Notes under the pieces: model-generated
What the model was told of the DNA's origin: nothing
Seen by the model: the letters and a program-made list of their open reading frames with translations, nothing else
The model's database searches: none
In this document: piece after piece, positions 914 through 27,250 of the stretch
How the letters are laid out: every line of letters starts with the position of its first letter
How positions within the stretch are numbered: position 1 is the stretch's first letter
Position numbers and translations under genes: made by a program
Assembly (NCBI GenBank): GCA_003154095.1
Contig: PMCK01000588.1
Location: 1-37,725, forward strand
Direction: 5' to 3'
Length of the DNA: 37,725 nt
Origin: Myxococcales bacterium
GTDB taxonomy: Bacteria > Myxococcota_A > Polyangia > Polyangiales > Polyangiaceae

Positions 914-940
914 CTCCGCCGCACTCCTCGAGGATCAACA

Positions 941-1489: not shown

Positions 1490-1540
1490 GGGGCAAGTCA
1501 GAGCGCACGAGATTAATATTTAGGAAAGCGAGCAGCGGTC

Positions 1541-4500: not shown

Positions 4501-5410
4501 AGCCGTGTCTCAAGGCGCTTCAGAACAGGCGAGTTCACTTGAAGAAACGTCAAGCAGCCTAGAGGAAATGGCCGGCATGACCAAGCAGAACGCCGATAAT
4601 ACGATACAGGCACGCTCGTTGGCTCAGACAACCAAGGAAGCCGCTGAAAAGGGCGGTACGGCCATGATTCGCATGACCGACGCGATGGAAAAGATCCGCG
4701 CTGCTTCCCAGGGCACGGCTGACATTATCAAGGACATCAACGAGATCGCGTTCCAAACGAATCTCTTGGCGCTCAACGCGGCGGTCGAAGCCGCCAGGGC
4801 CGGCGACGCAGGGCGTGGCTTTGCGGTGGTCGCTGAAGAAGTCCGTAACTTGGCGCTGCGCTCGAAGGAAGCAGCCAAGAAGACCGAAGACCTCATCAAG
4901 GTAGCGGTCGGTCATGCCGAGAATGGTCGAGTCATCACGAATGAAGTTGCTGGCAGTCTCACTGAGATTGTGACGGCCGCAGCCAAAGTCAACGACATCG
5001 TCAGTGAAATCGCCGTTGCCAGTCAGGAACAGTCACGTGGAATCGAGCAAGTCAACACTGCGGTTGCCGAGATGGACAAGGTCGTGCAAACCGCCGCGTC
5101 CAACGCAGAAGAGTCGTCAAGTGCGGCTGAAGAGTTGGCGAGTCAGTCTGAAGAGCTGTCTAGCCTCGTTCAGCGCTTCGAACTCGACCGGGACAACCGA
5201 ACAGCGTCACGGCGTCATGCTCCCGCCGCCAAAGAAGCCGCATCGCCACGCCGAGCTGCGATGCACCCCGCCACAATTCCGCCACCCAGGCGCGGAGCCG
5301 TTATTGTGAACCGTGCCAAGAGGCCCAACGGCGCCAACGGCACGACGCACAAACCAAGCCCCGAGGATCTAATCCCGCTAGAAAAGGACCCGGAATTCCA
5401 GGACTTTTAG
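1541..5410 (+). CDS. Transmembrane chemoreceptor (MCP) with a long tandem HAMP array and a C-terminal pentapeptide
   Basis: A 1289-aa membrane receptor. TM1 lies at about residues 11-30 and TM2 at about 206-226, bracketing a periplasmic region of about 175 residues that looks like a four-helix bundle. Residues of about 240-965 form a chain of HAMP-type modules with recurring [24 protein letters not shown] and DKISKG..P.KITD elements. Units begin 543 bp apart at first (2282, 2825, 3368) and then exactly 273 bp apart (3368, 3641, 3914, 4187). The signalling hairpin has its tip around residues 1065-1105 ([21 protein letters not shown]). A basic, proline-rich linker then runs to the final EFQDF, which fits the aromatic pentapeptide pattern used to tether CheR/CheB. 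cheR starts just downstream. The ligand cannot be read from the sequence. Confidence 0.95.
3368..4186 (+). repeat. Three exact-length 273-bp in-frame tandem repeats coding HAMP modules
   Basis: Units start at 3368, 3641 and 3914, and a partly diverged fourth starts at 4187. Each encodes 91 residues beginning [12 protein letters not shown]. Earlier related units start at 2282 and 2825 with twice-length spacing (543 bp, 181 codons). Neighbouring copies are nearly identical in protein but differ at many third codon positions, so they are old duplications under protein-level constraint rather than an assembly artefact. Confidence 0.9.
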
Positions 5411-5485
5411 CCAGCCCAAACAAGCGAGAAGCCCGTGGGCGACCGAAGAAATCCGAGGTCGCCCACAGCCCTTGCAGAGATTGTG

Positions 5486-6355
5486 ATGCTTAACGTGGAT
5501 GCGCAGCTGTTTCAAAGATTCTGTGACATTGCTTATTCAAGAGCAGGTATCAAGCTGCGCGACGGCAAAGAGGCACTTGTTTCAGCCAGGGTCGCCAAGC
5601 GCCTCCGAGCGCTACACCTTTCGAGCCCCAGCGAGTACTTGGCATTTCTTGAGGGAGATGCGTCGGGCAATGAGGTAGTCTCCTTCCTGGATGCCATCTC
5701 GACGAACTTTACGACATTCTTTCGTGAGCCCGATCACTTCAAACGCCTAGAAGAGTTCGTCGATTACAGGCTTAGTCAGGGCAAAAAGCGGCTTCGCGTA
5801 TGGTGCGCCGCATCGAGCAGCGGGGAGGAGCCTTATACACTGGCCATGACTCTTGCCGAAATGTTGGGCGATAGCCCCGTAGATTGGCGCATTTTGGCCA
5901 CGGACATTTCCACCAAGATTCTTGCAATGGCGGAAGCAGGCACGTACGACGAACCAGCACTCAAGGATGTGCCGCGGGCCCTGCTCTCGAAATACTTTAG
6001 GGCTACGGATTCACGACGCTCCAGCAATCGACGCTGGCAGGTCACAGACGAACTGCGTCGCAAAGTCGTCTTCAAGCGACTCAACCTGGCAAAACCCCCT
6101 TACCCAATGCCGGGCCCGCTGGACGTTGTATTCTGTCGGAATGTGATGATCTATTTCGATGATCCGGTAAGGCAGGGACTATTTACCGAGGTAGATCGGT
6201 TGCTGGCGGATGATGGTCTTGTCTGCATTGGCCACTCGGAGTCCCTTTCCGGGCTAAAGACCAAGCTGTCGATTATTGAACCTTCAGTTTACCAGCCCCA
6301 AGGGACTGTATCTCCATTGACAACGAGCAGGGCCGCCAAACGGATGCGCCGATGA
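5486..6355 (+). CDS. cheR: Chemoreceptor methyltransferase CheR
   Basis: An S-adenosylmethionine-dependent methyltransferase that methylates receptor glutamates. It is 289 aa from the ATG at 5486. An in-frame GTG at 5435 would give 306 aa, but the ATG start places the first helix (LFQRF) where the cluster III CheR has it. The N-terminal helical domain is followed by the SAM-binding motif CAASSSGEEPYTLAM, then ATDIST and FCRNVMIYFDDP. In the beta-subdomain, the stretch between KYF and the DEL motif (RATDSRRSSN..) is unusually basic and glycine-free. It differs from both other CheR loops in this window, so pentapeptide binding cannot be predicted. It sits between the multi-HAMP receptor and cheD, and its likely substrate is that receptor. 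Confidence 0.95.
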   Translation: MLNVDAQLFQRFCDIAYSRAGIKLRDGKEALVSARVAKRLRALHLSSPSEYLAFLEGDASGNEVVSFLDAISTNFTTFFREPDHFKRLEEFVDYRLSQGKKRLRVWCAASSSGEEPYTLAMTLAEMLGDSPVDWRILATDISTKILAMAEAGTYDEPALKDVPRALLSKYFRATDSRRSSNRRWQVTDELRRKVVFKRLNLAKPPYPMPGPLDVVFCRNVMIYFDDPVRQGLFTEVDRLLADDGLVCIGHSESLSGLKTKLSIIEPSVYQPQGTVSPLTTSRAAKRMRR

Positions 6356-6358
6356 AAG

Positions 6359-6844
6359 GTGAATGTGCGTCGAGTCGTCGTAGATATTGCGGATTTCGTG
6401 GTGAGTAAGGACTTGGACGTCACGTTGACAACCTATGCCCTGGGCTCCTGCATTGCCGTCATTTTGCATGATGCTGTGATTCCAGCAGCGGGGATGATTC
6501 ACTACATGTTGCCGCTGTCCTCGACGAATCCCGAGAAAGCCAAGCTCAAACCGGCCATGTTCGCCGATACCGGGGTGCCGCAGCTATTTCATGCGATGTA
6601 TGGCCTAGGTTGCAAGAAAGAAAACCTGGTTGTCAAAGTGGCGGGTGGTGGCCAGTTGTATGACGATCAGGGAATTTTCGAAATTGGTAAGCGCAATTAC
6701 ACGGTACTAAGGCGCATGCTTTGGAAGACCAACGTCCTCGTGGCGGCCGAAGAGGTAGGAGGCGCCAAGTCACGCACCGTTCATCTCGAAGTCGCAACGG
6801 GTCGTTGTGTAATACGTTCCGGAGATTTGGAGCAAGAGCTGTGA
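6359..6844 (+). CDS. cheD: Chemoreceptor glutamine deamidase CheD
   Basis: A 161-aa CheD that deamidates receptor glutamines. The catalytic cysteine lies in YALGSCIAV and the catalytic histidine 17 residues later in GMIHYMLP. A threonine lies six residues before the cysteine, as in active family members. VAGGGQLY and the C-terminal HLEVATGRCVIR strand complete the fold. The start could be GTG 6359, or GTG 6365 two codons later, which is better spaced from aaaggtga. It begins 3 bp after the cheR stop, and its TGA overlaps the next gene's GTG (GTGA at 6841-6844), so the genes are translationally coupled. In Bacillus-type systems CheD also partners a CheC/CheX-type phosphatase, and a cheX lies two genes downstream. 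Confidence 0.94.
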   Translation: MNVRRVVVDIADFVVSKDLDVTLTTYALGSCIAVILHDAVIPAAGMIHYMLPLSSTNPEKAKLKPAMFADTGVPQLFHAMYGLGCKKENLVVKVAGGGQLYDDQGIFEIGKRNYTVLRRMLWKTNVLVAAEEVGGAKSRTVHLEVATGRCVIRSGDLEQEL

Positions 6845-8105
6845 TCGACAAGCAAAACTTGATAGCGATAATTAGGCAGCTGCCCACTATTCCCCAGGCG
6901 GTTCTGGAACTGCAGAAATTGCTGACGCAGCCCAACGTCAGCGTTGCAGATGTCGATCGAGTGATCCGGACGGATCCAGCCCTGACCGGAAACATCTTGC
7001 GCCTCGCCAATAGTGCAGCCTTTGGCCTTTCACGCAAGGTAGCGGATATCCCGCAAGCCGTCACGCTCATGGGTTTCAAAGTACTTGGCAACCTGGCGCA
7101 TACGGCGGCATTCTCAAAAGCAATTCCACCAGAATTCCCGGGCTATCGCCTAACGGCAGCCCAATTTCTGCGTCACAGCTTCGTGGTTGGAGTTCTTGCT
7201 GAATCTCTTGCAAGCGCGATGAGCCTCGCCGCAAACCGACCTTACTTTACAGCGGGCTTGTTACACGACATTGGGAAATTGGTTCTAGGAACATTCGTAG
7301 CTACCCACGACCAGGATCTATTCAGGCTGCTCGATTCACAGGAGCTTACGTTCGTTCAAGTGGAACGTGAAATACTGGGTGTCGATCACGGTCAAGTGGC
7401 TGCATGGGTGGGCGAGCATTGGCAGCTCCCAGCCGAACTGATTGCCGCAGCCGAGTTGCATCATCGACCTGACGAGGTCCCGGCTGAATTTCAGCCGATC
7501 GTGGACATAGTTCATGTTGCTGACATGACAGCCCATTGCCTGGGCTTTGGCGCGGACATGGGAGAGCTCGCACGCAGCATTCATAAGGGCTCGTTCGAGC
7601 GACTCAAACTCACAGCTGAGTTGCTGGAAAGAGTGGCCAGTACGTCGCTCGAGCGACTGATGCAAGAATTACCCACGGAGGGGCGCGACAGCGTCAAGCT
7701 CCGGTGTCAGGAACTATTGCATATTTTGGTTGTGGATGATTCCTCGATTATTCGGCAAATGGTGTGCAAAAGCTTGGGATTGGCGGGGTTACCTCCCCAT
7801 GAGATATCGGAAGCCAGTGACGGCGCGCAGGCGCTCTCCATGCTGCGCGAGGGGTCACGCACGTTCGACCTTGTGTTAGCGGATATCCACATGCCGAAAA
7901 TGACCGGAACTCAACTAGTGGGGGCAATGTCAGAGGATGAAAGACTGAAAAGCATTCCGGTCGTCATCATTTCTTCCGATGGAAACACGGCCAACCACGA
8001 GCGGCTGCGAGCCCTCGGGGTAAGGGCACTATTAAGAAAACCATTTAGACCCGAACAGTTCAGGGCAGTCGTTCGCCCGATATTGAGCGACGAAACGGCG
8101 CGGTC

Positions 8106-8109
<4 letters not shown>
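6841..8109 (+). CDS. HDOD domain - receiver fusion protein
   Basis: A 422-aa protein from the GTG at 6841, which overlaps the cheD stop by 4 bp. An in-frame ATG at 6721 lies inside cheD and is rejected. Residues of about 8-210 form an HDOD domain, with IRTDPALTGNILRLANSA, the LLHDIGKLVLG motif near 140-150, and AELHHRPD near 205-211. A helical linker leads to a receiver from about 293 to the end: VVDDSS at 297-302, phospho-acceptor Asp347 in LADIHMP, and a conserved Lys in LRKPF. HDOD proteins usually act as signalling or protein-binding modules, not nucleases. Placing the receiver at the C-terminus inside a che operon suggests an output protein phosphorylated by the cluster I CheA, in place of a stand-alone cheY. 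The downstream target is unknown. Confidence 0.93.
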
Positions 8110-9631
<1,522 letters not shown>

Positions 9632-10926: not shown

Positions 10927-11502
10927 TTAAGCTTGGTGAAGCCGCACCTTGATTTTGCCCGTGTCTGTGGCGTACGTCAAAGTGCGACCGAGAGTACCTC
11001 CAATGTTTTGGTGGGATACTAGAATGCCATGGCGCTCCAACGTCTTGCGGGCTATATCCACGTTCTGGTAACCGACAGACCGGTTTGGGTCGAACCCGCG
11101 CAAGACGTTCGCCCCGCCAATGAGCGAAGCCGTAATCTCATGCTTCGGAACCTGCAGGAACGCTAATGACCTGAGCATAAGTTCGATGCAACAGGTGACG
11201 AATGTGAATTGATTCGAGTCGGACGTTTGACGAAGGCAAGGATGAATACAGGACACGTTGCAGGGTTCAACTGCGTCCATGGGGGAGGGCAACCGCGCGT
11301 GGCAGATGGCGGAGACTTGCATACGTGGAGCGAACAAGATCACAGAGACACAGGACCCAAGGACGGTCCACACAAGGCTGGGTTGTGCCCCAATGTGAAC
11401 GGCACCTACGCCTAGCCTGATCTTCGTGCGATCTCCTTGATGAGCGCATGTTGACTGATCATTGATTGCAATTAGAGAGCGTTCTGGCAGCCCGTTGGTC
11501 AT
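10927..11502 (-). CDS. cheD: Second chemoreceptor glutamine deamidase CheD
   Basis: A 191-aa CheD on the minus strand. The catalytic Cys is in VLGSCVSV and the catalytic His 17 residues later in ICHARLP. IGGANVL and GYQNVDIARKTLERHGI match the family, and the C-terminus has the usual GR.L.Y...TGKIKVRL pattern. The residue six before the cysteine, where a catalytic threonine is expected, is Trp, with Thr one place later. This may be a local shift rather than loss of function. The N-terminus is about 30 residues longer than usual, so a later start is possible. It is divergent from cheB at 11637 across 134 bp. It may serve the cluster II array, whose own CheD-like domain is degenerate. Confidence 0.9.
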   Translation of the reverse strand: MTNGLPERSLIAINDQSTCAHQGDRTKIRLGVGAVHIGAQPSLVWTVLGSCVSVILFAPRMQVSAICHARLPSPMDAVEPCNVSCIHPCLRQTSDSNQFTFVTCCIELMLRSLAFLQVPKHEITASLIGGANVLRGFDPNRSVGYQNVDIARKTLERHGILVSHQNIGGTLGRTLTYATDTGKIKVRLHQA

Positions 11503-11636
11503 CTACCTTACCATTACGGCCAATATGCCGGATCTTATAACCAATGCTGTCGAATCTGCAGATTGGGTATCAAAAATTCCAGAAATCTACCGTTGTATAT
11601 TGAATCTGCAGCCAAATCGCATTTCGCGCGCAATCA
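11503..11636 (+). promoter_or_regulatory. Divergent intergenic region between cheD and cheB with a spaced direct repeat
   Basis: This 134-bp region lies between two divergent genes and must hold promoters for one or both. The 10-mer GAATCTGCAG occurs at 11552-11561 and again at 11602-11611, exactly 50 bp apart, each containing the palindrome CTGCAG. An AT-rich TATATT lies at about 11597 just before the second copy, but I see no convincing -35 element. The cheB ATG lacks an obvious Shine-Dalgarno sequence. An operator role is speculative. Confidence 0.3.
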
Positions 11637-12686
11637 ATGTCGAATCAACGAAAAAAAGTCCTGATTGTTGACGATTCTGCCATCATTCGTCAACTGCTGA
11701 GCCAAGTCTTGGGTAGCGCTGCGGACCTTGAAGTCGTCGGCGTGGCGCCAGATCCCTATGTAGCCTGGGAGAAAATCAAATCGCTGTCACCAGACGTATT
11801 GACGCTCGACGTCGAGATGCCACGAATGGATGGCGTGACGTTTCTAGAGCGCCTTATGAAGTTGCACCCGATGCCTGTCGTTATGGTATCTTCGCTAACT
11901 GAGGAGGGCTGCGCCACTACGCTGCGTGCGCTTGAATTAGGAGCATTTGACTTCGTTGCCAAACCCAAAGTGGACATTCGTGCGGGCACGCTGGAACTGG
12001 CGGACTCGATACTGGAAAAGGTTCGAGCAGCGGCACACAGCAAACCCAAAGCCCCGAAGGCGAGACGATCGATTCGCGCGACTCCCGTAAAGGCGCCGAT
12101 TGGCGCGATGCTCAAGACGACCCACCGGATCGTTGCTGTGGGTGCCTCGACGGGCGGAACCGAAGCCATCCGCGAGATTCTTATTCGCCTGCCGGCCGAT
12201 GCCCCGCCCATCGTAATCGTTCAGCATATGCCTCCAGGTTTTACGCGCGCATTTGCAGCGCGACTTGACTCAATGACGGCGGTGAGAGTCAAGGAAGCCG
12301 AAGACGGTGACCGACTATTTCCGGGCCGGGTGCTGATTGCACCGGGTGACTACCACATGGCGCTGCGACGCAGCGGGGCCGACTACAGCGTGCGAGTATT
12401 TTCATCTGAACGAGTCAACCACCATCGTCCATCGGTGGATGTTCTGTTCGATTCGTGTGCGGCTTGCGCCGGAGCCAACGTTGTCGGTGTTATCCTAACC
12501 GGCATGGGCAGTGACGGGGCAAAAGGGATGGCCAATATGCACACAAAAGGCGCGCATACCCTGGCCCAAGACGAGGACTCTTGCATTGTCTTCGGAATGC
12601 CGCGCGAGGCCGTCGCGCTCGGTGCGGCTGACGAAATCCTTCCACTTGGGCGCATTCCAATGGCCATTTTGCAGGCCTGTGCCTAG
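11637..12686 (+). CDS. cheB: Receptor methylesterase/deamidase CheB
   Basis: A 349-aa CheB. The receiver occupies residues 7-125 (IVDDSAI, acceptor Asp in [14 protein letters not shown], Lys in VAKP). A basic linker (about 135-160) leads to the esterase domain, with catalytic Ser in VGASTGG, His in VQHMPPGF and Asp in LTGMGSDGAKG. Among the window's CheBs the receiver is most like that of 8570 by eye. It is the only rightward gene beside the leftward cluster II operon. It converges with the CheZ-like gene (35-bp gap) and diverges from cheD, so its expression is uncoupled from the operon that encodes its presumed kinase. It is the only CheB near cluster II, so it most likely serves that array. 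Confidence 0.95.
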   Translation: MSNQRKKVLIVDDSAIIRQLLSQVLGSAADLEVVGVAPDPYVAWEKIKSLSPDVLTLDVEMPRMDGVTFLERLMKLHPMPVVMVSSLTEEGCATTLRALELGAFDFVAKPKVDIRAGTLELADSILEKVRAAAHSKPKAPKARRSIRATPVKAPIGAMLKTTHRIVAVGASTGGTEAIREILIRLPADAPPIVIVQHMPPGFTRAFAARLDSMTAVRVKEAEDGDRLFPGRVLIAPGDYHMALRRSGADYSVRVFSSERVNHHRPSVDVLFDSCAACAGANVVGVILTGMGSDGAKGMANMHTKGAHTLAQDEDSCIVFGMPREAVALGAADEILPLGRIPMAILQACA

Positions 12687-12721
12687 TTCACTCAAGCGCC
12701 AGTGAGTCCCATTAGTTGTGA

Positions 12722-13690
12722 CTAGAAGAGTTCGATATCTCCTGCTTCCAGACACGTCTGCTGCACGGCGACGGCTCGAATGGTCGAACGGCTACGCTCG
12801 AATTCATCCGTAAATGCCCAAAGCTCGCGGTTGTCGACGTTGGCTGTTGCCCACTCTACCGTTTGCGTGGTGAATGGCTCAAGAATATTCACGCGAGAGA
12901 CGCTAAGTTGGCTCAATTGTCCAACCAGATCCCCGAATTGCAGGCCGCGCACGCAAAGATTGATGCCCTGTTGAATGGACACCCCGATACCCTGCGCGGC
13001 ACGCAATTGCTCTGCCAGTTCTTGATTGAGGCCGTCCACTTTATTGCGCAACGTAGTAGTTGCATCACGCGCGTCATTCACAAATTTACTGTCGTCCGTA
13101 ACTGCGGCTTTGGCATCCGATGCTACCGCGCCGACGGCATCGCGAATTTCTTCCACGTTGGCGTCCATTCGAGTGCTTACGCCACCAAATTGCATCGCTA
13201 GTTCTTTCACCGCTGCCGCGACCACCGCGAAACCTCGCCCTGCCTCGCCGGCGCGGCTTGCCTCGATTGAGGCGTTCAGTGCTAGAAACCGAATTTGCTC
13301 GGCGCTATTTCTTACCGCGTGCGAGAGCTTGTCCAGTTCGCCGAGCACCGGCAACGTTGCGTCGAGCCGCGTCGCCAAACCAATAGTCCGATCATTGGCG
13401 TGCTCGAGCCCGCGAAGCACTTTCTCCATGAGGTGCTGACTGTCGTCGACGAATCTCGCAACTGTGCCAGTCCCGGCTGATGGGTCATCCACGGAACGCA
13501 GTGTCTTCTCTAGCAACGTCTGCTGCGTATGACTCTGAGTGGATATCTGTTCAAAGCCATCACTCAGCTTGGTTACGGCGTCTAGCACAATGTCCCGCAC
13601 CTGTCCTACATGCTGGCGAATTGCAGCTAACTCATCGAGGACGGCCAAGTCCAATCCAGTACAAATGCCTGACTTGGCTGATTCGGTCAT
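12722..13690 (-). CDS. Soluble MCP-like protein with a CheZ-like DxxxQ motif and acidic-aromatic C-terminal tail
   Basis: A 322-aa cytoplasmic protein with no membrane segments. Residues of about 125-170 form an MCP-type hairpin tip (EQIRFLALNASIEASRAGEAGRG), so it could enter receptor arrays. Downstream of the second helix, residues 248-260 read RGLQFGDLVGQLS. This matches the CheZ active-site helix pattern F-x-D-L-x-G-Q, with Asp254 and Gln258 in the positions of the CheZ catalytic Asp/Gln. The protein ends GDIELF, an acidic-aromatic tail comparable to the CheY-P-binding tail of CheZ. My reading is a receptor-derived CheY-P phosphatase, because cluster II has a cheY but no cheX. The start overlaps the upstream cheR-cheD stop (ATGA, 13687-13690). 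It is the last gene of the operon. The function is inferred, not shown. Confidence 0.8.
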   Translation of the reverse strand: MTESAKSGICTGLDLAVLDELAAIRQHVGQVRDIVLDAVTKLSDGFEQISTQSHTQQTLLEKTLRSVDDPSAGTGTVARFVDDSQHLMEKVLRGLEHANDRTIGLATRLDATLPVLGELDKLSHAVRNSAEQIRFLALNASIEASRAGEAGRGFAVVAAAVKELAMQFGGVSTRMDANVEEIRDAVGAVASDAKAAVTDDSKFVNDARDATTTLRNKVDGLNQELAEQLRAAQGIGVSIQQGINLCVRGLQFGDLVGQLSQLSVSRVNILEPFTTQTVEWATANVDNRELWAFTDEFERSRSTIRAVAVQQTCLEAGDIELF

Positions 13691-15093
13691 GGGTTCCTTT
13701 CGCGTCCAGCAGTGAGCTTGCCCAATTCTCGGGATTGCGGCGCAAAAGGCCGACCGTCCTCCGTGTTCGCTCGAACAAGAACACGACCCGTGGCAAGCTC
13801 TAATCTAAAATCGGCGGTCTCTTCGAACACACGTTGGGCCGTGACGGCAATGGACGCTTTTTCAAGCCAGTCGTTGACAACGGATAGCAGCGTCTGGCAA
13901 TCAATCTTTTCGCTCTTAGCGCTAGTTGTGCGGGTCGCGACCAACTTGGCTTCAATTGAGGAGCGAGCAGAAGCATTGGCCTGCAATTCGCGCACCATGG
14001 CCCGAAGTATTGACGTTACGGCGCGTGCCCCTCCGGCGTTCGAACAATTTTGCAGAAAGTGTGCGGCACAACTTCGCTGCGCGTCTCTGTTCACCAGTAC
14101 CGTAACGACACCAGCACCCACGGTCATCGTTGCCCAGCCTTCCGAACCGCTCAAGAACTGCCCACGCTTCGACCCGAAATCAGAATCCAGCGATACCGCC
14201 GCCTGCAGCCGCGGGACGGATGCATGGGCTGTGTCGCTACTATAACCACTCGGGCGATACACAGTATGTGCCACGGGTTCCAAATGTAGAGTTATCCCCG
14301 TTAGGCCCTCTGAATGGCCCAGAAACAGCAGCCCGTGCGGTGCCAGCAAGCCGCAGGCGCGCTGAACCACTTCCAACTGGGTCGGCTTATCGAAATAGAT
14401 CAACACGTTGCGACAGAATATTATGTCGAGAGGCTTCTTGATGGCCCAGCCACGCTTGGCTAAATTTAGCTGCTGGAACTGAACACGAGCGCGAAGCTCA
14501 GGACGCACTCGATAAACTTCCTTGTGTGGGCCCTTGCCGCGTAGGAAGATACTGCGGCGCCAAGCGTCGGACAATGTGGCGATGTCGGATTCGTGATAAA
14601 CTGCGGCTTCGGCTTCCTGGAGCACAGCGGTATCCAGATCAGTGGCAGTAATCGACGTCCTATTCCATTCCGCCCGCGACACACTTGCCTTGACGACCGC
14701 CGCGATGGTGTAGGGCTCTTCGCCGGTGGAGGATGCAGCACACCAAATTCGTAAGCCTCGCAGCCGCGCACTCTTGACGCCTTCTTCCGAAGAGTTAAGC
14801 CAATCTTCCAAAATCTTGAAGTGATGAGGCTCACGGAAGAATTCGGTCTTATTGGTGGTAATTGCATTTACCAATGCCTGCAGCTCGGTGCCGGTAGGGT
14901 CATTGCGTGTGACTCGATTGTAGTACTCCGTGAATGAACGGAGCCCCAGGGCATTGAGCCGTCGATTCAATCTCGAAACCAGCAGAATCTTCTTTTCCTG
15001 CGAAAGCGCAATGCCTGCAACATTGTAGATGAGCGTCTTGAGAGACACCCACTCGGCGTGGCTAATCGAGGGTAAGCCATTGGCCGCGGGCAA
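13687..15093 (-). CDS. cheR: CheR methyltransferase fused to a CheD-like domain lacking the catalytic cysteine
   Basis: A 468-aa protein. Residues 1-282 are a complete CheR: CAASSTGEEPYTIAA SAM motif, FCRNVLIYFD, and a beta-subdomain loop FLRGKGPHKEVYRV close to the enterobacterial pentapeptide-binding loop. Residues of about 315-445 follow the CheD fold. TVGAGVVTVLVNRD aligns with the LGSC strand, AAHFL holds the conserved His exactly 17 residues on, and LELATGRVLVR matches the closing strand. The catalytic Cys position is Gly328, and the GGA turn is replaced by VATRT. Thr322 and His345 are retained. It is therefore a probable non-catalytic CheD domain, perhaps for partner binding. TTG at 15093 is the only plausible start before the first helix, with a weak ribosome site. 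It lies 29 bp after the MCP stop and overlaps the next gene by 4 bp. Confidence 0.9.
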   Translation of the reverse strand: MPAANGLPSISHAEWVSLKTLIYNVAGIALSQEKKILLVSRLNRRLNALGLRSFTEYYNRVTRNDPTGTELQALVNAITTNKTEFFREPHHFKILEDWLNSSEEGVKSARLRGLRIWCAASSTGEEPYTIAAVVKASVSRAEWNRTSITATDLDTAVLQEAEAAVYHESDIATLSDAWRRSIFLRGKGPHKEVYRVRPELRARVQFQQLNLAKRGWAIKKPLDIIFCRNVLIYFDKPTQLEVVQRACGLLAPHGLLFLGHSEGLTGITLHLEPVAHTVYRPSGYSSDTAHASVPRLQAAVSLDSDFGSKRGQFLSGSEGWATMTVGAGVVTVLVNRDAQRSCAAHFLQNCSNAGGARAVTSILRAMVRELQANASARSSIEAKLVATRTTSAKSEKIDCQTLLSVVNDWLEKASIAVTAQRVFEETADFRLELATGRVLVRANTEDGRPFAPQSRELGKLTAGRERNP

Positions 15094-15122
15094 ACTCTTG
15101 AGCGTCTCGGGGCGAGCCGTGG

Positions 15123-16775
15123 CTAGAACTCCTCGAATACCGTGTCAAGCTCACTCGGAGTCGCTCCAGAAAGGCCGGAACCGTTGGTGCCGTGTCTGAT
15201 TCCTGGCGTCGGCCGTATCGTCGCGGGTTCGTGTTCGACCTCAAAAGCTGTATGCTTAGCGGCTTGCTTCACGGGACTGCGTCGTGTCGTGCGCGCGCCG
15301 TTGGAAGGCGCCTTCGGACGCCTGCGGGCTGAAGTGTTGCTCGACATGGCTGCGTCCGAGCTGTCTCGCGTTATATGAAATTTCGCCACGACATTGAGTA
15401 ATTGGCGACCTTGTTGCGATAGTTCTTCGGCAGTACCAGAGAGCTCTTCGGTCTGGGCCGCGTTAGTCTGAGTGACCTGGTCCATTTGCGTTACAGCCGT
15501 ATTTACCTGGTCAATGCCGGTGGACTGTTCACGCGAAGCGGCCGCAATCTCTCCTACAAAGTCCGTGACGCGCTTGACGGAACCCAAAATTTGCTGCAAT
15601 GCCTCGCCGGAAGTCTCGACCAACTTGTAGCCAGCCTCGACCTTGCTCACCGAGTCTTCTATCAGTGATTTTACTTCCTTGGCCGCGGCAGCACTGCGTT
15701 GCGCCAGGTTGCGGACTTCAGAGGCTACGACGGCAAACCCTCGACCTTGCTCACCGGCTCGCGCGGCCTCCACTGCCGCATTGAGAGCCAACAGGTTCGT
15801 CTGAAATGCAATTTCGTCAATAGTCGTCGTGATGTCCGCGATGCGCTTTGACGATTGGTTTACTTCTTTCATGGCGGAAACGGCGTCGGCCACGATGCGC
15901 CCGCCCTTTTCGGCCACTTCGCGCGACGCACTCGCCAATTGTGCTGCTTGCTGGGCACTGTCGGAAGTCTGTTTGACGGCCGAAGTAATTTCCTCTAGCG
16001 TCGAAGCGGTTTCCTCGATGCTTGCAGCCTGTTCCTGCGCGCCGCTGGCTATGGCTTCAGAGGACGCGGACAGCTCTTGCGAAGCGGCGGCAACCGACTC
16101 GGCAATCCTTGCCGTCTCGACCAGGGCTTTTCCGAACCAATTGGCGAAAAATACACCGATCAATAAGCCCAACGCCGACGATACGCCAATTAGGACGAAC
16201 GACAGATTGCGTGCGCGAGCGTAGGTGTTAAGTGCGTTGGTTCGAAGTTGCTCGCCCACCGTCTCTTTGCTCTTGCAGAGTTCTGAAATGAGCTCGTCAG
16301 CCTTGAGTCCCTGGGGAACTGAAGCTGCGAGCAAGTCCAACGCCTCCTTCTTCTTACCCTGAAGGCTGAGGTTGGCCACTTCCTTGGCACCCACGACATA
16401 AGCGTCAAGCGCCGTGCGGGCCGCGCTGGCTATGCGCCGTGCGTCATCCGTAACAACGGACTTGTCCACCCGATCCATGGCGTTACGCATGCGCTCATAA
16501 GTAGTCTCGATCCGCTGTTGCGATTGATGAATTGCCTCAGGGGTTGTGTCAAGAATTGACTGGCGCACGGTTCGCGCAATGACCCACATGTCCACGTCAG
16601 CCTCGCGCGCAGCGGCGAGGCCGAGAAAGCCGCGATTAAACAGCGAGTCAATCTCGTCATTCAACCCGCTGGCGTTGGATAGACCAACGTATCCCACGAC
16701 CGTAGTAAATGACGTTATGAGTAGAAATCCAAGGATCAATTTGACTTTAGCACTGAGATTCTGAAACCATTCCAT
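15123..16775 (-). CDS. Transmembrane chemoreceptor (MCP), 4HB-type sensor, C-terminal VFEEF
   Basis: A 550-aa receptor. TM1 is at about residues 12-31. A four-helix-bundle-like periplasmic domain spans about 32-189, and TM2 about 190-213 ([19 protein letters not shown]). A recognisable HAMP domain is missing: within about 10 residues of TM2 the sequence is already coiled-coil signalling helix. The tip is near 315-355 ([21 protein letters not shown]). The tail after about 470 is basic and proline/alanine-rich and ends VFEEF, an x-aromatic-x-x-aromatic pentapeptide of the CheR/CheB-tether type. The cheR immediately downstream (29 bp) has the matching loop type, so the pair probably works together. 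The ligand is unknown. Confidence 0.94.
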
Positions 16776-16824
16776 GGTAGATACCTTTCAGTCGCGGCAC
16801 TGCCGGACACAATTCTTGTTTGAG

Positions 16825-17322
16825 TTAGGTCGAGACAATGTTGGCCTCCAACCCAAGCAGCTGGTCGAGATTCAAGAGCAAGACAATTTCCTCGCCCCGC
16901 TGAACCATACCGGTAATAAAAGTCGTATCGACGTGTCCGCCCAAGTCCGGGGGTGGCGCAATGTCCGTCGGCGCTACGTCGAGTACGTCGGAAACCGCAT
17001 CCACGACGAGCCCCAAAACACGCGTGCCGACAAGAACCACAATAATAACGGTAAATCGATTGAAAGTGGACTCGCCGAGGCCAAATCGCATCCTGAGATC
17101 GACCACGGGAACGATGGTGCCCCGCAAATTCATGACTCCGCGAATGTGCTCTGGAGCACTCGGGATGGGTGTTATTGGTGTCAGCCCGCGAATTTCCTGC
17201 ACGCGCAGAATCTCCAGAGCAAACAACTCATCATGTAGTTTGAATGCCAAGAACTGATGGATCGGCTCCGCCGACGTGGCGGCTGGCTTTGCCATGCTTA
17301 GTGAAATTGCCGTTTGAGTCAT
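16825..17322 (-). CDS. cheW: Coupling protein CheW
   Basis: A 165-aa single-domain CheW. Typical segments are HDELFALEILRVQEIRG, HIRGVMNLRGTIVPVVDLR, GLVVDAVSDVLDV and FITGMVQRGEEIVLLLNLDQLL. An AGGGA ribosome site lies about 8 nt before the ATG. It sits between cheA (40-bp gap) and the MCP in the leftward cluster II operon and is presumably the adaptor for those two. There are no extra domains. Confidence 0.96.
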   Translation of the reverse strand: MTQTAISLSMAKPAATSAEPIHQFLAFKLHDELFALEILRVQEIRGLTPITPIPSAPEHIRGVMNLRGTIVPVVDLRMRFGLGESTFNRFTVIIVVLVGTRVLGLVVDAVSDVLDVAPTDIAPPPDLGGHVDTTFITGMVQRGEEIVLLLNLDQLLGLEANIVST

Positions 17323-17362
17323 ATTAGTTTCCCTGTTCCAGAGGCCCAGCCAAGAAGCTCGT

Positions 17363-19339
17363 TCATGCCGCGTCCGCCTTAGTCTGTGGGGCCGTCAGGC
17401 GGGCCGTTCTCACAAGTCCGGGAATATCCAAAATGAGCGACACCTGTCCGTCGCCAAGAATCGTCGCGCCCAGAACGCCGTCAATTCGCTGGTAGTGTGC
17501 TTCCAAGCTTTTCAACACGACCTGAGCCTGTCCGAGAAGCGTGTCAACGACGAGCCCAACCCGGTTGCCATCCGATTCCACCACGACAACCAGTGCGCGT
17601 GTTGGGTCTACCGTGGCACCCGCGATTCCAAATAGTTCATGCAATCGTAGCAGCGGCAACGCTTGACCGCGCACAATGATCAGCTCACCACGGCCCATAA
17701 CGTGTTTGTATTCAGCGGCGCTAGGCCGAAGCGATTCAGTAACGGCAAGTAGCGGCACGATGAACCGCTGTGAAGCAACGCCCACCGTTAGCCCGTCGAG
17801 AATTGCAAGAGTCAGCGGAAGTTTAATCCGGAACGCGGTACCCTGGCCCGGCCGGGTCGTAACTGCAATAGTGCCGTTCAATGCGTCTATTGTTCGCTTC
17901 ACTACGTCCATACCGACGCCGCGCCCAGAAACGTCACTTACGGTTTCTGCCGTTGAAAAACCGGGTTCGAAAATCAGGGCTTGTATTTGTTCATCGCTCA
18001 CTGAATCAGTGGGCCGCAGTAACCCAACGGCCTCCGCCTTATGGCGAATTCGCGCGGTGTCGAGACCACGACCATCATCCCCGAGCTCAATGACAATGCC
18101 GCCGGCCGCATGTTGCGCTGACAGCCTTAGATTGCCCAGCGCAGGCTTGCCCTGGCTAAGGCGCTCGGCCGCCGTTTCTAGGCCGTGATCCAATGCGTTG
18201 CGCACTAAATGCGTCAGCGGATCGGACAAGCGTTCGACGACACCCTTGTCGAGCTCGGTATCTTCTCCTTCGATCGTGATTGCAACCTCTTTGCCCATCG
18301 TGGCCGCCAAATCCCGGACAATTCGAGGAAACCTGCCGAAAACCGTGCTGACGGGCACCATGCGAATTGCCATGACTCGCGCCTGCAAATCCTGGGTATT
18401 GTTTTCGAGAGCCGACACGGCGTCCTGCAGCGCTGAATGTTGGGCCGCGTTCAACGAATTCATCAATTGCTTGACCATCGATTGAGCAATCACAATTTCG
18501 CCCACCAGGTCGATGAGTGCATCCACCTTTTCCGTGGATACGCGCAGTGTCGAGCCTGCCGAGTGCTGTGGCAAATGTTCGACCGCACTGGCAACGTCGC
18601 GTGAGGCGGCGCGTCTTTCGACGGGGGAGCTTTCGTCCTCCGACAGCGTGATGCGGCAAACCTCCTCGACAAACAGGAATACATCGCGAATCTTTTCGTC
18701 CGAGACGTCGGTGACCAAAATCGATGTGAAAGACAGATAGCACTTCTCGGGGTCCATTATTTCGAGCGCGGGCAGCCTGGCAAGGTCGGCCGCTACCCCC
18801 TCGAGTGAACCCAGTGAAGCCAGATCCCTAAAGATTAACAGCGGATCAAGCCCGGTGATGAAGAACTCGGGAGTAGGAGACAAGCTGACTCGTATTCGAC
18901 GATGAGCCTTGGAAGCTGCTGGGGTCACGGCGGCACGTTCGACGACGACCGGAGAAACTTCAGCGGTTTGCTCGAGTTTCAGTACTAGATTCGCAATCTC
19001 GGCGGACGGCGGTTCTTTCGAGTCAATCGTGTCAAGTAGTTCTCGCAGCGCGTCAACGGACTTTAGTAGCAGCGAGACACGTTCGGTGGTTGCCGATAAA
19101 TTGCCTCGGCGCATCCGGTCCAGGAGTGTTTCCAAGGCATGTGTAAAGTCAGCGATATTTCCAAACCCGAGACTGCCAGCGGCGCCCTTGATGGAGTGCG
19201 CCGCGCGAAATATTGCGTGAAGCGCTTCGCTGTCCTGCGGCGTACTCTCGAGGACCAATAGGCCATGTTCCAGAGTGGCGATGTGCTCCGTCGCCTCCTC
19301 TAGGAATGATTGCCGAAATACCGAAAGATCAATCTTCAT
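17363..19339 (-). CDS. cheA: Chemotaxis histidine kinase CheA, with P2-like domain
   Basis: A complete 658-aa CheA. P1 Hpt spans 1-115 with phospho-acceptor His48 in AAHSIKG. Residues of about 143-235 are a P2-like domain (RRIRVSLSPTPEFF.., two strand-helix-strand halves) that would dock CheY or CheB. P3 dimerisation is at about 262-330 (VDALIDLVGEIVIAQSMV). The ATPase domain has N box RNALDHG near 378, G1 DDGRG, F box GFSTA, G2 GRGVGMDVV near 470 and GQGTAF. P5 runs to the end. Together with the cheY (9-bp gap) and STAS gene upstream and cheW downstream, it forms a compact leftward operon. It retains P2, unlike the cluster III kinase, so the two should differ in how they recruit response regulators. 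Confidence 0.96.
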   Translation of the reverse strand: MKIDLSVFRQSFLEEATEHIATLEHGLLVLESTPQDSEALHAIFRAAHSIKGAAGSLGFGNIADFTHALETLLDRMRRGNLSATTERVSLLLKSVDALRELLDTIDSKEPPSAEIANLVLKLEQTAEVSPVVVERAAVTPAASKAHRRIRVSLSPTPEFFITGLDPLLIFRDLASLGSLEGVAADLARLPALEIMDPEKCYLSFTSILVTDVSDEKIRDVFLFVEEVCRITLSEDESSPVERRAASRDVASAVEHLPQHSAGSTLRVSTEKVDALIDLVGEIVIAQSMVKQLMNSLNAAQHSALQDAVSALENNTQDLQARVMAIRMVPVSTVFGRFPRIVRDLAATMGKEVAITIEGEDTELDKGVVERLSDPLTHLVRNALDHGLETAAERLSQGKPALGNLRLSAQHAAGGIVIELGDDGRGLDTARIRHKAEAVGLLRPTDSVSDEQIQALIFEPGFSTAETVSDVSGRGVGMDVVKRTIDALNGTIAVTTRPGQGTAFRIKLPLTLAILDGLTVGVASQRFIVPLLAVTESLRPSAAEYKHVMGRGELIIVRGQALPLLRLHELFGIAGATVDPTRALVVVVESDGNRVGLVVDTLLGQAQVVLKSLEAHYQRIDGVLGATILGDGQVSLILDIPGLVRTARLTAPQTKADAA

Positions 19340-19348
19340 GAGCCAGCC

Positions 19349-19714
19349 TCAACGAACGACTTTAGAAACGACCGCCAACAGCTTTTCGGGGTCGAAGGGT
19401 TTGACTAGCCAACCGGTTGCTCCCGCGGCTTTGCCCTCCTGCTTTCTCGATTCTTGCGATTCCGTAGTAAGCATCAGAATCGGCGTGAACTTATGCGCGC
19501 TGTTCTTTCGCGCGGCACGAATGAAACCGACGCCGTCCAGTTCAGGCATGTTTAGGTCGGTAATGACCAGTTGAAAGGTCTTCTTCTCGAGCTCGCCGAG
19601 CCCGAGTTTCCCATCGGCAGCTTCCGTTGTCTCAAAGCCCGCCTGTCGCAACGTGAACGCCACCATTTGACGCATGGTTGGGGAATCATCGACGATAAGA
19701 GCAAATTTCGGCAT
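19349..19714 (-). CDS. cheY: Single-domain response regulator CheY
   Basis: A 121-aa stand-alone receiver. The acidic pair is Asp9/Asp10 (IVDDSPT), the phospho-acceptor Asp53 (ITDLNMPELDG), a Thr lies in LMLTTES, and the conserved Lys is in LVKPFDPEKL. It is 9 bp upstream of cheA and follows the STAS gene in the same operon, the usual arrangement of STAS-cheY-cheA-cheW modules. No output domain is attached, so it must act by binding a motor or another partner not encoded here. Its phosphatase may be the CheZ-like gene at the operon's end. Confidence 0.95.
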   Translation of the reverse strand: MPKFALIVDDSPTMRQMVAFTLRQAGFETTEAADGKLGLGELEKKTFQLVITDLNMPELDGVGFIRAARKNSAHKFTPILMLTTESQESRKQEGKAAGATGWLVKPFDPEKLLAVVSKVVR

Positions 19715-19728
19715 GTAACTCCCACGAT

Positions 19729-20064
19729 CTATCCAACACCTGGGTCACCCAAGAGGACCTTGCTCAGGCCGAGTAGTTGGGCATCTTCGTGAAGGGTTTC
19801 GCTGGCGTGCTTCAAAGTTAGGCCAATGTGCAGACCTGCTGCCGCTGTTCGCATGGCCGCCAACAATTGTAACATCGCGGCATCCAGGTACGTCACTCCC
19901 GAGAGATCGACCGTAATTGGAATGCCTGCCGCAATTGCCCGGATTGCGTCGTGGTGCACACTCGCTACCTCCGCAATGGTCAGATCACCATTGAGGACAA
20001 GTTGGATCTCCTGCTGTCCGATGACCACTTTGCAGGCCAATTCTGAGTTATTGACGGAGGACAT
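19729..20064 (-). CDS. STAS-domain protein (anti-sigma-factor-antagonist-like), no phosphorylatable Ser at the usual site
   Basis: A 111-aa STAS protein and the first gene of the leftward cluster II operon. Strands and helices match SpoIIAA-type proteins: LNGDLTIAEVASVHHDA, then ITVDLSGVTYLDAAMLQLL and GLTLKHASETL. In SpoIIAA the phosphorylated serine lies in a D-S-S-G loop. Here the loop is D-A-A-M, with no Ser or Thr, so regulation by a serine kinase at that site looks impossible. STAS proteins are commonly found just before cheY-cheA, with unclear roles. A GGAGG-like ribosome site precedes the ATG, and the cheY start is 14 bp after the stop. Confidence 0.9.
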   Translation of the reverse strand: MSSVNNSELACKVVIGQQEIQLVLNGDLTIAEVASVHHDAIRAIAAGIPITVDLSGVTYLDAAMLQLLAAMRTAAAGLHIGLTLKHASETLHEDAQLLGLSKVLLGDPGVG

Positions 20065-20863: not shown

Positions 20864-21352
20864 TTAGGTGCTCTTGCCAACTCGAATCGAAATGGGACCT
20901 GAGCCGTAACCCTGCACATCGACAAGCACGTCCGTTCGCACCGCGGACTGCATGAATGCCTTGTGCTCGGGAGGGGGCGCGACGGCTTTGGCTAATACGG
21001 TTTGCAGGTGCACCCGGCTACCAACATGCTCGGTAAACAGTGATGAGCAGATGTTGGCAACTTCACGGAAATTCTCCAGCAGACCCTCATCCAAGCTGCC
21101 CTTCTTGATCGACTCGTCAGCGACCGATTTAGGCAGCAACGAAAGCGCAGCCCCCAAATATCCGGCTGCGGCGAAGGAGCAGACCAAGAGGCCCATGACT
21201 TGATCCTCGTTGCCTATGTAAACGGCAATCACGCAAGGCTTTATTGAAGTGGGTTCAAACTTCGGCGCGACCTGAACCTCGACGGGCCTACCATATAATC
21301 CGCTTAAGAGGGTATGGAGTGTAGCGGCTTTGGGATCCTGGATTTTGGCCAT
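20864..21352 (-). CDS. CheC/CheX-like protein (putative CheY-P phosphatase)
   Basis: A 162-aa protein. Residues 90-108 read GLLENFREVANICSSLFTE, with Glu97 and Asn100 fitting the E-x-x-N active-site pair of CheC/CheX/FliY proteins. The strand VMGLLVCSFAAAGYLGAALSLL and the C-terminal VLVDVQGYGSGPISIRVG also fit the fold. Overall similarity to classic CheX is weaker than for its upstream neighbour, so it may be a divergent branch, as sometimes seen in chemosensory operons of deltaproteobacteria. It is the last gene of a leftward trio (cheY, cheX, this gene) with a 14-bp gap. Phosphatase activity is inferred only from the motif. Confidence 0.7.
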   Translation of the reverse strand: MAKIQDPKAATLHTLLSGLYGRPVEVQVAPKFEPTSIKPCVIAVYIGNEDQVMGLLVCSFAAAGYLGAALSLLPKSVADESIKKGSLDEGLLENFREVANICSSLFTEHVGSRVHLQTVLAKAVAPPPEHKAFMQSAVRTDVLVDVQGYGSGPISIRVGKST

Positions 21353-21366
21353 GTCAACTTTGCGAG

Positions 21367-21858
21367 TTAGGCGGGAGTACGGCTAGCGTTGAATTTGTCC
21401 TTGTTACAAACAATTAGCAAACGCGCTGGCGTTTTGCCAAGCCTAACGTCCACTTGAGCCATTTGCTGCCGTTCTGTGATACGCAAATGACCCTCCATTA
21501 CAATGGGTAAACCAAGTGAAAGCGGCAGCTGGACGGTTGCCATTCTTTTCTTGACTCCTCCAGCTATGATGTTGGCGATCTCGCCGAGTGCGTCGCTGAC
21601 GTCCGTATCGGGCAGGTCGTCGTCGGATGCAAAGAGCGCCTTGGCCAGCGTTTGGCAACCGGCAGCGTCGGATGCTAGGCCGACTTGAAGAGAACCTTCC
21701 TCGCCGACGAGCGCGACAAAGCAGCCCGTCAAATCCAACGCCAGCACCCCGCTGGCATCGGCGGTCTCGAGCGCAGCATCCAACGTTGTTGTTGCGAATT
21801 CGGATGCGGCTTCCGTGGTTGCCGAAAGCCACTCATCAAGGGCAATCGCAGCGCTCAT
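21367..21858 (-). CDS. cheX: CheX-family CheY-P phosphatase
   Basis: A 163-aa protein from the ATG at 21858. The open frame extends upstream, but that part lies inside cheY and is rejected. The active-site helix DALGEIANIIAGGVKKRM carries Glu93 and Asn96 (E-x-x-N). It is followed by LPLSLGLPIVMEG, with the proline that usually follows the helix in this family. A preceding strand pair (GCFVALVGEEGSLQVGLAS) completes the CheX-like fold. The start overlaps the cheY stop by 4 bp (ATGA, 21855-21858), so the two are translationally coupled, and that CheY is the obvious substrate. Confidence 0.85.
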   Translation of the reverse strand: MSAAIALDEWLSATTEAASEFATTTLDAALETADASGVLALDLTGCFVALVGEEGSLQVGLASDAAGCQTLAKALFASDDDLPDTDVSDALGEIANIIAGGVKKRMATVQLPLSLGLPIVMEGHLRITERQQMAQVDVRLGKTPARLLIVCNKDKFNASRTPA

Positions 21859-22223
21859 GCTAACCCTAGGGGCAGTAGCGCGTCGTGCAGCGCTTCGGGG
21901 GTAAATGGTTTGACGATGAGAAATTTGGCGCCATTTTCCATGGCCATGTTGCGGATGTCGTCCGTGCCCTCGGACGTGACGAACCCGAATTGAACGGTTA
22001 TACCCTCCGAGCGAACGGCTTTGAGCAGATCGATGCCATTCATTTGCGGCATGTTCCAATCGGCCAAAACCAAATCGAAGGGGCCGCCTCGTAGTTTTTG
22101 AAGGGCTTCCTCTCCATTGGTTGCCTCATCAACTTGGTGTTCGCCAAGGTTTGCTTGACGCAAAGCCCTGCGCACAATCATGCGCATGGCCTTACTATCG
22201 TCCACAATCAGAAGCTTTTTCAT
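21855..22223 (-). CDS. cheY: Single-domain response regulator CheY
   Basis: A 122-aa receiver from the ATG at 22223, which has GGAG 8 nt upstream. An in-frame ATG at 22271 would add 16 unlikely residues. The acidic pair is Asp8/Asp9 (IVDDSKAMR), the phospho-acceptor Asp55 (LADWNMPQMNG), a Thr lies in GFVTSEG, and the Lys is in IVKPFTPE. It heads a leftward operon with two CheX/CheC-like genes and no kinase. It is divergent from the cheX-led cluster III operon, whose CheA probably phosphorylates it. That operon also has its own CheY of similar type (27270, shared WNMP motif). Confidence 0.95.
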   Translation of the reverse strand: MKKLLIVDDSKAMRMIVRRALRQANLGEHQVDEATNGEEALQKLRGGPFDLVLADWNMPQMNGIDLLKAVRSEGITVQFGFVTSEGTDDIRNMAMENGAKFLIVKPFTPEALHDALLPLGLA

Positions 22224-22444
22224 GGGAGCAATCTCCAAAACTGTTGGGTCTAACAAGTACCAATCGGCCACCTGGGTTTAACAGTTAATCTCTAGGAGAT
22301 AAAAGACCCGGAAATGCGAAATCCGACCGGTCACTTGCGGCCGCTCCGCGTTTCCGGCCGGTGCCCCCCCGACTTAATGTCCCTCGGCGTGTGCCGTTCG
22401 GGTGTTGAAACGTGCGATCCGCAATTAAACACCAGGTGCTATGA
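22224..22444. promoter_or_regulatory. Divergent promoter region between cheY and cheX
   Basis: A 221-bp region serving two opposite operons. It contains the short inverted repeat ATCTC-TAG-GAGAT at 22288-22300, a GC-rich block (about 22320-22370) with several short palindromes, and AT-rich sequence (aattaaac) just before cheX. No sigma-54 or sigma-28 consensus is convincing to me. Confidence 0.35.
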
Positions 22445-22903
22445 ATGTACTCCGTCGAGGTCGCAGATATAGTGAACAACGTCTGGCAATCCTTGCTCGA
22501 ATTTGACATCACGTTGATTGACGAGCCGGAGCCGGTTTCGCGGTCGCAATGGGCTTTGACCGGTTGCATTCAAATCACTGGGGCCTGGCGAGGCGCAATA
22601 ACCGCTACCTGTGGCGAGAGCCTGGGTCGACAAATAGCTGGGGCCATGATGGGTTTGAGTCCGGAAGATGTGACTCGCGAGGATTTGAGCGACTCGATTG
22701 GGGAGATCATAAATATGGTCGGAGGCAACGTTAAGGCGCTCCTGCCTTCCCCCTGTCAGCTGTCTCTCCCGTCCGTGACAAGCGGTGGCCAATTTGAGCT
22801 TACAGTGTCACGCGCCGAGGTAGTCGATACATTGCACTTCCAATCGCTCGGCTTTCCTATTGTACTGCAAGTACTTCACGAACGGTCGGCTACGGAAGGC
22901 TAG
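22445..22903 (+). CDS. cheX: CheX-family CheY-P phosphatase
   Basis: A 152-aa CheX-like protein, first gene of the rightward cluster III. Glu87 and Asn90 in SDSIGEIINMVGGNV give the E-x-x-N active site, and LPSPCQLSLPSV supplies the following conserved proline segment. The strand GAWRGAITATCGESLG precedes it. An out-of-frame ATG four bases upstream is ignored; AGGTG lies a short distance before the start. It is the fourth CheX/CheC-like gene in this window and the third in cluster III, so this cluster is rich in predicted phosphatases. It is separated from the PAS-MCP by 182 bp, so the receptor may have its own promoter. Confidence 0.87.
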   Translation: MYSVEVADIVNNVWQSLLEFDITLIDEPEPVSRSQWALTGCIQITGAWRGAITATCGESLGRQIAGAMMGLSPEDVTREDLSDSIGEIINMVGGNVKALLPSPCQLSLPSVTSGGQFELTVSRAEVVDTLHFQSLGFPIVLQVLHERSATEG

Positions 22904-23033
22904 TCTGTCGTTGTTTTAACGAGGGGCAACTACACGCGATGCGACTTGTTCCTGTCCGCCCGGGACGCCTTATCTTTAATATTATCGCAATGCCCTGAAG
23001 CGCACGAATTTCGGGCCGTAGTCATTGGCTGTA

Positions 23034-23050
23034 GCAAGCGGGTCGCTTGC
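23034..23050. promoter_or_regulatory. Perfect inverted repeat in the PAS-MCP leader
   Basis: GCAAGCG-GGT-CGCTTGC is a 7-bp stem with a 3-nt loop ending 35 nt before the ATG at 23086. It has no following T-run, so a leader hairpin or operator is more likely than a terminator. Confidence 0.35.
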
Positions 23051-23085
23051 ACTTGGTTTCAATTCCGCTCCTGCAGGTGACCGAT

Positions 23086-24477: not shown

Positions 24478-24524
24478 ATCATGCCTCTGTTTTGCCACGC
24501 AATTAGATTTGGAGTAGTCCGGGC

Positions 24525-26786: not shown

Positions 26787-27250
26787 TGGCTACGCGAATG
26801 CAGCTCTGCACATTCATTGTTGACGATCTCCTGTTTGGCGTCGATGTGATGCGAGTGCAGGAAATAATTCAGTATCAGCACATGACTCGCGTTCCGTTGG
26901 CACCGAAGCTGATTCGCGGTTTGATTAACCTTCGCGGTCAAATCGTAATGGCGGTCGATTTGCGGGAACGATTGGACTTGCCGCCACGTGGCGGTGATGA
27001 GCCACCCACCAACGTCGTAGTGCAGGGGGTCGACGCGGCGGTTAGCCTGCTAGTTGATTCCGTCGGGGACGTGATTGAGGTCTCTGATGATTCATTCGAA
27101 TCGCCCCCGGCGACGATGTTGCCACGTTACCGCCAAGTCGTAGACGCCGTTTGCAAGCTTCCTCACGGTTTGTTACTGCTGCTTGATCCAGAGCGAGCCG
27201 CGTCCTCATCCGAGGGCGGTCCAGTTGGAAATCTTGGATACGGGCGTTGA
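26786..27250 (+). CDS. cheW: Coupling protein CheW
   Basis: A 154-aa single-domain CheW translated from an ATG overlapping the cheA stop by one base. Conserved segments: CTFIVDDLLFGVDVMRVQEI, LIRGLINLRGQIVMAVDLRERL and SLLVDSVGDVIEV. The C-terminus is short. It belongs to the cluster III array with the PAS receptor and the double-P5 CheA. Confidence 0.95.
   Translation: MATRMQLCTFIVDDLLFGVDVMRVQEIIQYQHMTRVPLAPKLIRGLINLRGQIVMAVDLRERLDLPPRGGDEPPTNVVVQGVDAAVSLLVDSVGDVIEVSDDSFESPPATMLPRYRQVVDAVCKLPHGLLLLLDPERAASSSEGGPVGNLGYGR

Follow-up and report, generated by a model that had tools for sequence, protein, structure and literature searches.

A soluble McpA-like chemoreceptor with a CheZ-type motif as a candidate CheY-P phosphatase

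CheZ, a CheY-P phosphatase, is the Escherichia coli enzyme that erases the chemotaxis signal. Its residues Asp143 and Gln147 act on CheY-P, with the Gln positioning the attacking water, and its C-terminal peptide binds CheY. The initial annotation of a contig from a Myxococcales bacterium (PMCK01000588.1; the 37,725 nucleotides analyzed are referred to here as the window) pointed to an MCP-like soluble protein (P0001) that combines a motif resembling the CheZ active site with a CheZ-like C-terminal tail, and proposed it as a new CheY-P phosphatase. On that proposal, a single polypeptide could both take its place in the receptor array and dephosphorylate CheY.

The gene and its chemosensory operon

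P0001 is encoded on the minus strand (13690..12722; start codon ATG; 322 aa); on the plus strand, the reading frame across this region is broken by stops. The MCP hairpin noticed initially was recovered as the PF00015 signaling domain (residues 119 to 241; E value, 7.8e-17), which was the sole Pfam domain in the protein. Residues 250 to 260 read LQFGDLVGQLS, with D254 and Q258 four residues apart as in the CheZ pattern F-x-D-L-x-G-Q, and the translation ends in GDIELF, i.e., the acidic-aromatic end that had been described. No transmembrane segment was detected in P0001 (maximum 19-residue hydropathy, 1.03); the same maximum was at least 1.6 in 32 of 45 relatives. Because it has no such segment, P0001 was filed as a soluble relative and atypical member of the McpA-like receptors discussed below.

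The gene ends a minus-strand run encoding STAS, CheY, CheA, CheW, a membrane MCP, CheR, and P0001, with CheB on the plus strand and CheD beyond it (Table 1). The operon CheY, the presumed substrate of P0001, has D53, Asn at D+2, and Glu at T+2, as read off its sequence. The CheR protein (13687-15093, minus strand) carries a C-terminal extension of ~190 aa with no Pfam match above the cut-off. The window as a whole (1-37725) contains side-by-side chemosensory sets at ~2-9631 (plus strand), 10927-20064 (mainly minus), 22445-29607 (plus), and 32208-37289 (plus), the last of which includes a four-CheW-domain protein. An unusually long poly-HAMP MCP (1,289 aa; seven HAMP_2 stretches) is encoded at 1541-5410 on the plus strand.

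Table 1. Coordinates of P0001, its features, and neighboring genes in the window
Feature	Position	Strand	Basis
Soluble MCP-like protein P0001 with CheZ-type motif and acidic/aromatic tail	12722..13690	-	Translation, 322 aa
CheZ-type site, L250-QFGDLVGQ-258 (D254, Q258)	12917..12943	-	D and Q invariant in 45 nonredundant members
C-terminal GDIELF tail	12725..12742	-	G-x-[VI]-[ED]-L-F in 85/85 members
N-terminal helix, residues 1-68 (L42 and F46 invariant, Q56 nearly invariant)	13487..13690	-	Conservation; helix 2-68 in model
CheD	10927..11502	-	PF03975, 1.2e-18
CheB, opposite strand	11637..12686	+	PF01339, 1.6e-67
CheR	13687..15093	-	PF01739, 2.2e-54
Membrane MCP	15123..16775	-	4HB_MCP_1 and signaling domain
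CheW	16825..17322	-	ORF, named by sequence; CheW query in neighborhood comparison
CheA	17363..19339	-	Hpt, dimer, HATPase, and CheW domains
CheY	19349..19714	-	PF00072, 1.1e-26
STAS protein	19729..20064	-	PF13466, 1.8e-15
CheX-like phosphatase, separate CheY'-CheX block upstream of operon	21367..22059	-	PF13690, 1.5e-13

The cluster had also been described as having a CheY and no CheX. This is correct for the operon itself and incorrect for the window, in which three CheX-like ORFs are present. One (21367-22059) lies 1.3 kb upstream on the same strand as the operon, and the others are at 22445-22903 and 8106-8573, both on the plus strand. The CheX profile (PF13690) had no match in P0001. The upstream ORF is part of a separate minus-strand block (20864-22271) that encodes a CheY-like receiver (21855-22271), the CheX-like protein, and a 162-aa protein; the latter has no Pfam match, contains E-V-A-N, and is possibly a divergent CheX/CheC.

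Conservation of the motif and tail

A single-sequence search of genome contigs with P0001 yielded no relatives; further carriers were gathered with a profile of its C-terminal half. This profile had matches in 7 of 329 genomes of the phylum, including the source genome and that of the closest full-length relative (L018; 25% identity), which has the motif VRGLQFEDIASQ, ends in GSVELF, and is followed on its contig by CheY, STAS, and CheA. Another sequence among the top matches by E value (L008) was rejected as a relative, since it is a fragment of an ordinary MCP that lacks the motif. Some of the carrier sequences also occur under Myxococcota in the named collection, which makes a myxococcotal source for the window most likely. 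When named genomes were scanned with the pattern, there were at least 592 matches, 538 of them confirmed, and the 80 matches kept came mostly from Gammaproteobacteria (e.g., Stenotrophomonas, Ectothiorhodospira, Solimonas, and Sedimenticola). Plasmids searched by tblastn gave no match to P0001; with a gammaproteobacterial member as the query, a Vibrio second chromosome was matched.

In the conservation check set by the initial annotation, homologs kept D254, Q258, and the tail: R.LQF.D...Q and a terminal G-x-[VI]-[ED]-L-F were both present in all 85 members, most of which were supplied by a scan that fixed R, LQF, and D and left Q258, L42, F46, and the tail free. Outside the MCP tip region, 45 sequences of <75% identity were invariant at L42, F46, D200, R248, L250, Q251, F252, D254, Q258, G317, L321, and F322. 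As a control for bias, 185 gammaproteobacterial genomes were searched with a hairpin-only profile lacking both motif and tail. All of the 30 best matches contained [LI][QH][FY].D...Q, and all tails printed ended in [VI]-x-[LI]-F; R248 varied in this set, and D254 and Q258 were invariant. Because the motif and tail were conserved throughout the members and again in the matches found with the motif-free profile, we judge from these alignments that their occurrence in P0001 exceeds chance. Elsewhere, an MCP (L194:4530-5741) ends in SGEIDLF and lacks the CheZ-type motif, so that the tail can occur alone and may serve another use.

CheZ was found neither in the source genome (84% complete) nor in six other myxococcotal carriers, and a separate cheZ gene was present in the gammaproteobacterial carriers searched. 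CheX showed the reverse distribution, being present in the Myxococcota carriers, with the opposite pattern in the gammaproteobacterial ones. The presence of CheX in the former and of a separate CheZ in the gammaproteobacterial carriers examined was counted against a phosphatase role for P0001. It favors an alternative in which the motif and tail dock CheY or CheY-P at the receptor, either as a sink or to keep a local store, while dephosphorylation is left to CheX or CheZ at another place in the cell; the general resemblance of the tail to CheY-binding peptides points the same way. However, docking would not call for an invariant Asp-Gln pair at a spacing of four, flanked by F and L/I/M/V as in CheZ, and we regard this alternative as unlikely.

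FliM had no match in the source genome, which has at least three chemosensory systems, or in genome G017, and was found in others. Since FliM was not found in the source genome, CheY there is probably not acting on a flagellar motor, and the outputs of its chemosensory systems are probably not flagellar.

Relationship to CheZ and predicted structure

By profile, P0001 is not a member of the CheZ family. PF04344 (CheZ) had no match in P0001 at an E value of 0.1, CheZ was not among the Pfam families listed for the 45 members, and a full-length hhalign comparison of the family with CheZ was not significant. A full-length CheZ profile scored the P0001 family barely higher than ordinary MCPs (mean, 4.8 versus 3.6 bits), indicating that the resemblance is mostly the motif; changing F, D, and Q to Ala lowered the CheZ HMM scores of the family. 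The CheZ sequences fetched have the motif AQDFQDLTGQVIRR and end in LLSSLGF. From the Gln to the C terminus, there were 54 to 77 aa in the 85 members and 50 to 79 aa in the hairpin-only set versus 59 to 73 aa in CheZ. At the motif, the hydrophobic face shifts around the helix by about half a turn in the P0001 family and CheZ alike, and D and Q lie ~140 to 180 degrees off the downstream hydrophobic core. Judged by helical phase only, D254 and Q258 would therefore be on the outer face and point away from the hydrophobic side of the helix at this position.

Significant hhalign comparisons with CheZ were limited to stretches around the motif, which were chosen post hoc. In one of these, 59 columns aligned gap-free and in register (P = 1.8e-4 for one comparison). 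Its score of 24.8 was reached by 1 of 60 heptad-block shuffles, which scored 15 ± 3.5. This in-register alignment suggests, and does not prove, that the P0001 family and CheZ share descent. A correlation of hydrophobicity profiles with CheZ, for which the best of 8,928 windows fell on the zero-offset diagonal, was confounded by heptad phase and was not relied on.

The same data bear on the alternative that P0001 is an ordinary soluble chemoreceptor whose motif is a packing element at the bundle end. That Pfam recognizes only the MCP signaling domain agrees with it, and the shift of the hydrophobic face at the motif could be structural. Packing is nevertheless a very unlikely explanation, in that the outward-facing polar D and Q are strictly invariant and the motif recurs in a second group of proteins tied to che genes.

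This second group emerged from weaker MCP-like matches (~400 aa) of the hairpin-only search, for which 20 neighborhoods were fetched. [FY].D...Q was present in 10 of 10 che-adjacent matches versus 1 of 10 others (Fisher test, 1.2e-4, post hoc). The che-adjacent proteins mostly have LQFQDRxxQ and tails ending in FF, and most adjoin cheY; eight (L176, L180, L183, L185, L187, L188, L189, and L192) combine LQFQDRxxQ with a location next to cheY, and no cheZ was detected in their clusters. The CheZ HMM gave 2.9 to 25.5 bits for eleven second-group proteins. Nine of these exceeded 8.5 bits, the highest score among 70 other MCPs, and most had the Asp in or near the CheZ register. Pfam's CheZ model gave 4e-5 for one member, which is below the cut-off. 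From a match in layout only, we infer that this group is of the Vibrio cholerae VC1394 (F9) kind; in a review, VC1394 and VCA1088 are listed together as 24H outliers that share one topology (PMC7534058).

An AlphaFold2 model of P0001 (45 sequences; mean pLDDT, 84.8; pTM, 0.53) consists of a helix at residues 2 to 68, a loop at 69 to 76 whose length varies among relatives, a helix at 77 to 282, within which the sharp MCP turn was not registered by DSSP, and a short helix at 287 to 306. The best structural alignment was with the MCP 2ch7 (Z, 14.3; rmsd, 7.8; 280 residues). CheZ was absent from the matches listed by Foldseek and VIA-align, which says little because P0001 is a long coiled coil. 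By hairpin symmetry, L42 and F46 would face D254 and Q258, far from the tip and past the break at 69 to 76. The CheZ-type site would then form a bundle module of its own, set behind a short MCP core, an arrangement that fits the unusual heptad class.

When the model was aligned to Tsr (1qu7), D254 and Q258 fell near Tsr residues 496 and 500 (offset counted by hand), i.e., at about methylation helix 2. The site might accordingly serve adaptation or the docking of CheR, CheB, CheD, or CheW, with the tail being a decayed CheR/CheB pentapeptide, a possibility also suggested by the pentapeptide length and terminal Phe of the tail and by the neighboring cheR, cheD, and cheB genes. The flanks of the site are, however, large and hydrophobic (LQF and I/V), unlike those of methylation sites. 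In addition, the C terminus of McpA is reported to have a nonaromatic second residue and to show no binding to any of four CheR proteins (PMC7184735); an aromatic residue at the second pentapeptide position is likewise lacking in the GDIELF-type C termini of 85 of 85 members. Such a role in adaptation or docking is quite unlikely.

McpA-like receptors and the candidate function

As a protein family, P0001 is not new, contrary to the initial proposal. Its place is with the McpA-like receptors of F7 systems, which were described in 2020 (PMC7184735) and of which it is a soluble relative with the same gene order and the same tail; the PF00015 signaling domain was found in 45 of 45 members. Ortega et al. 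(2020) describe a stage 1 order of F7 genes in which cheB is followed by the mcpA-like receptor gene (PA0180/CttP, VCA1088) (PMC7184735). The order CheY-CheA-CheW-MCP-CheR-CheD-CheB-[P0001-like] was found in Vibrio, Myxococcota, and many Gammaproteobacteria; in one Vibrio locus (L170), CheY, CheA, two CheW proteins, MCP, CheR, CheD, and CheB precede the P0001-like gene. The position in the F7 cluster (STAS, cheY, cheA, cheW, MCP, cheR, cheD, cheB, and mcpA-like) is common to the window, this Vibrio locus, and two myxococcotal loci (L195 and L198). The order in the Vibrio and myxococcotal loci and in many Gammaproteobacteria is that of stage 1; in the window, cheB is inverted and cheD lies past it.

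According to that study, F7 clusters at stages 1 and 2 include a cheY and lack a cheZ; the loss of mcpA-like genes came at stage 3, from which point species kept the F6 cheY/cheZ pair, and this pair later moved into the F7 cluster (PMC7184735). The conserved C terminus of McpA-like receptors is called important with an unclear role, no settled role is given there for the receptors themselves or for this C terminus, and Pseudomonas aeruginosa McpA was reportedly located in the F6 array rather than that of F7 (PMC7184735), which counts against a phosphatase role. Searches of the open-access literature found no mention of a CheZ-type site in the McpA-like family and no earlier report of the motif strings or of CheZ-type sites in receptors.

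The features of P0001, their strict conservation, the CheZ-like spacing, the helix phase, and the gene context are observations. Reading function from these sequences, we find it somewhat probable that P0001 is a receptor-type CheY-P phosphatase, and it is plausible that it works like CheZ. The MCP signaling hairpin (residues ~77 to 225) would join the chemosensory array, and the far end of the bundle (helix 1 to 68 and helix 226 to 282) would form a second, CheZ-like module. The GDIELF tail, on a linker extending ~60 residues past the site, would capture CheY first, as the CheZ peptide does. CheY-P would then be acted on by Asp254 and Gln258, which are placed on the outside of the last long helix, in the manner of Asp143 and Gln147 of CheZ. 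P0001 would in this way end signaling by the CheY of its operon, for which there is no CheZ, and may provide the off-switch that sensing systems without a CheZ of their own would otherwise lack.

A CheZ-type pair in McpA-like receptors would explain both the conserved C terminus and the F7 CheY without CheZ. If this reading is true, chemoreceptors would be enzymes as well as regulators of the kinase. More tentatively, and with rather less confidence, F7 and F9-like systems without a dedicated CheZ might each encode a dedicated receptor-phosphatase, in which array membership and signal erasure are combined. Its far bundle would carry a CheZ-type active site and a tail that holds CheY, and its active-site helix would be shared with CheZ by descent.

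Among known systems, P0001 resembles CheZ (PF04344) in having F-x-D-L/I-x-x-Q on a long bundle helix, ~60 to 70 residues ahead of an acidic/aromatic C-terminal tail and in the same helix phase. It differs from CheZ in its MCP hairpin tip, in the lack of a Pfam CheZ match, and in its tail, GDIELF being similar in type to LLSSLGF and different in sequence. Tm14 of Thermotoga maritima (3g67; VIA-align Z, 11.9) resembles P0001 in being a soluble receptor that consists of a hairpin and has no sensor domain, although the matched Tm14 chain spans only model residues 33 to 253 and stops at the motif. The 24H MCPs beside cheY (VC1394 layout, F9) share a CheZ-type site and are similar in length and layout; unlike P0001, they have FF tails and are mostly encoded directly before cheY. 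With the McpA-like receptors (PA0180/CttP and VCA1088), P0001 has in common the F7 gene order, an MCP hairpin of unusual heptad class, and a conserved C terminus that is not a CheR pentapeptide (PMC7184735, PMC7534058), while it differs in lacking a transmembrane segment and in gene position, cheR being the preceding gene and cheB being encoded on the opposite strand. The Vibrio protein of L170, in the position of VCA1088, has ALQFTDIIVQ together with the tail GEVELF.
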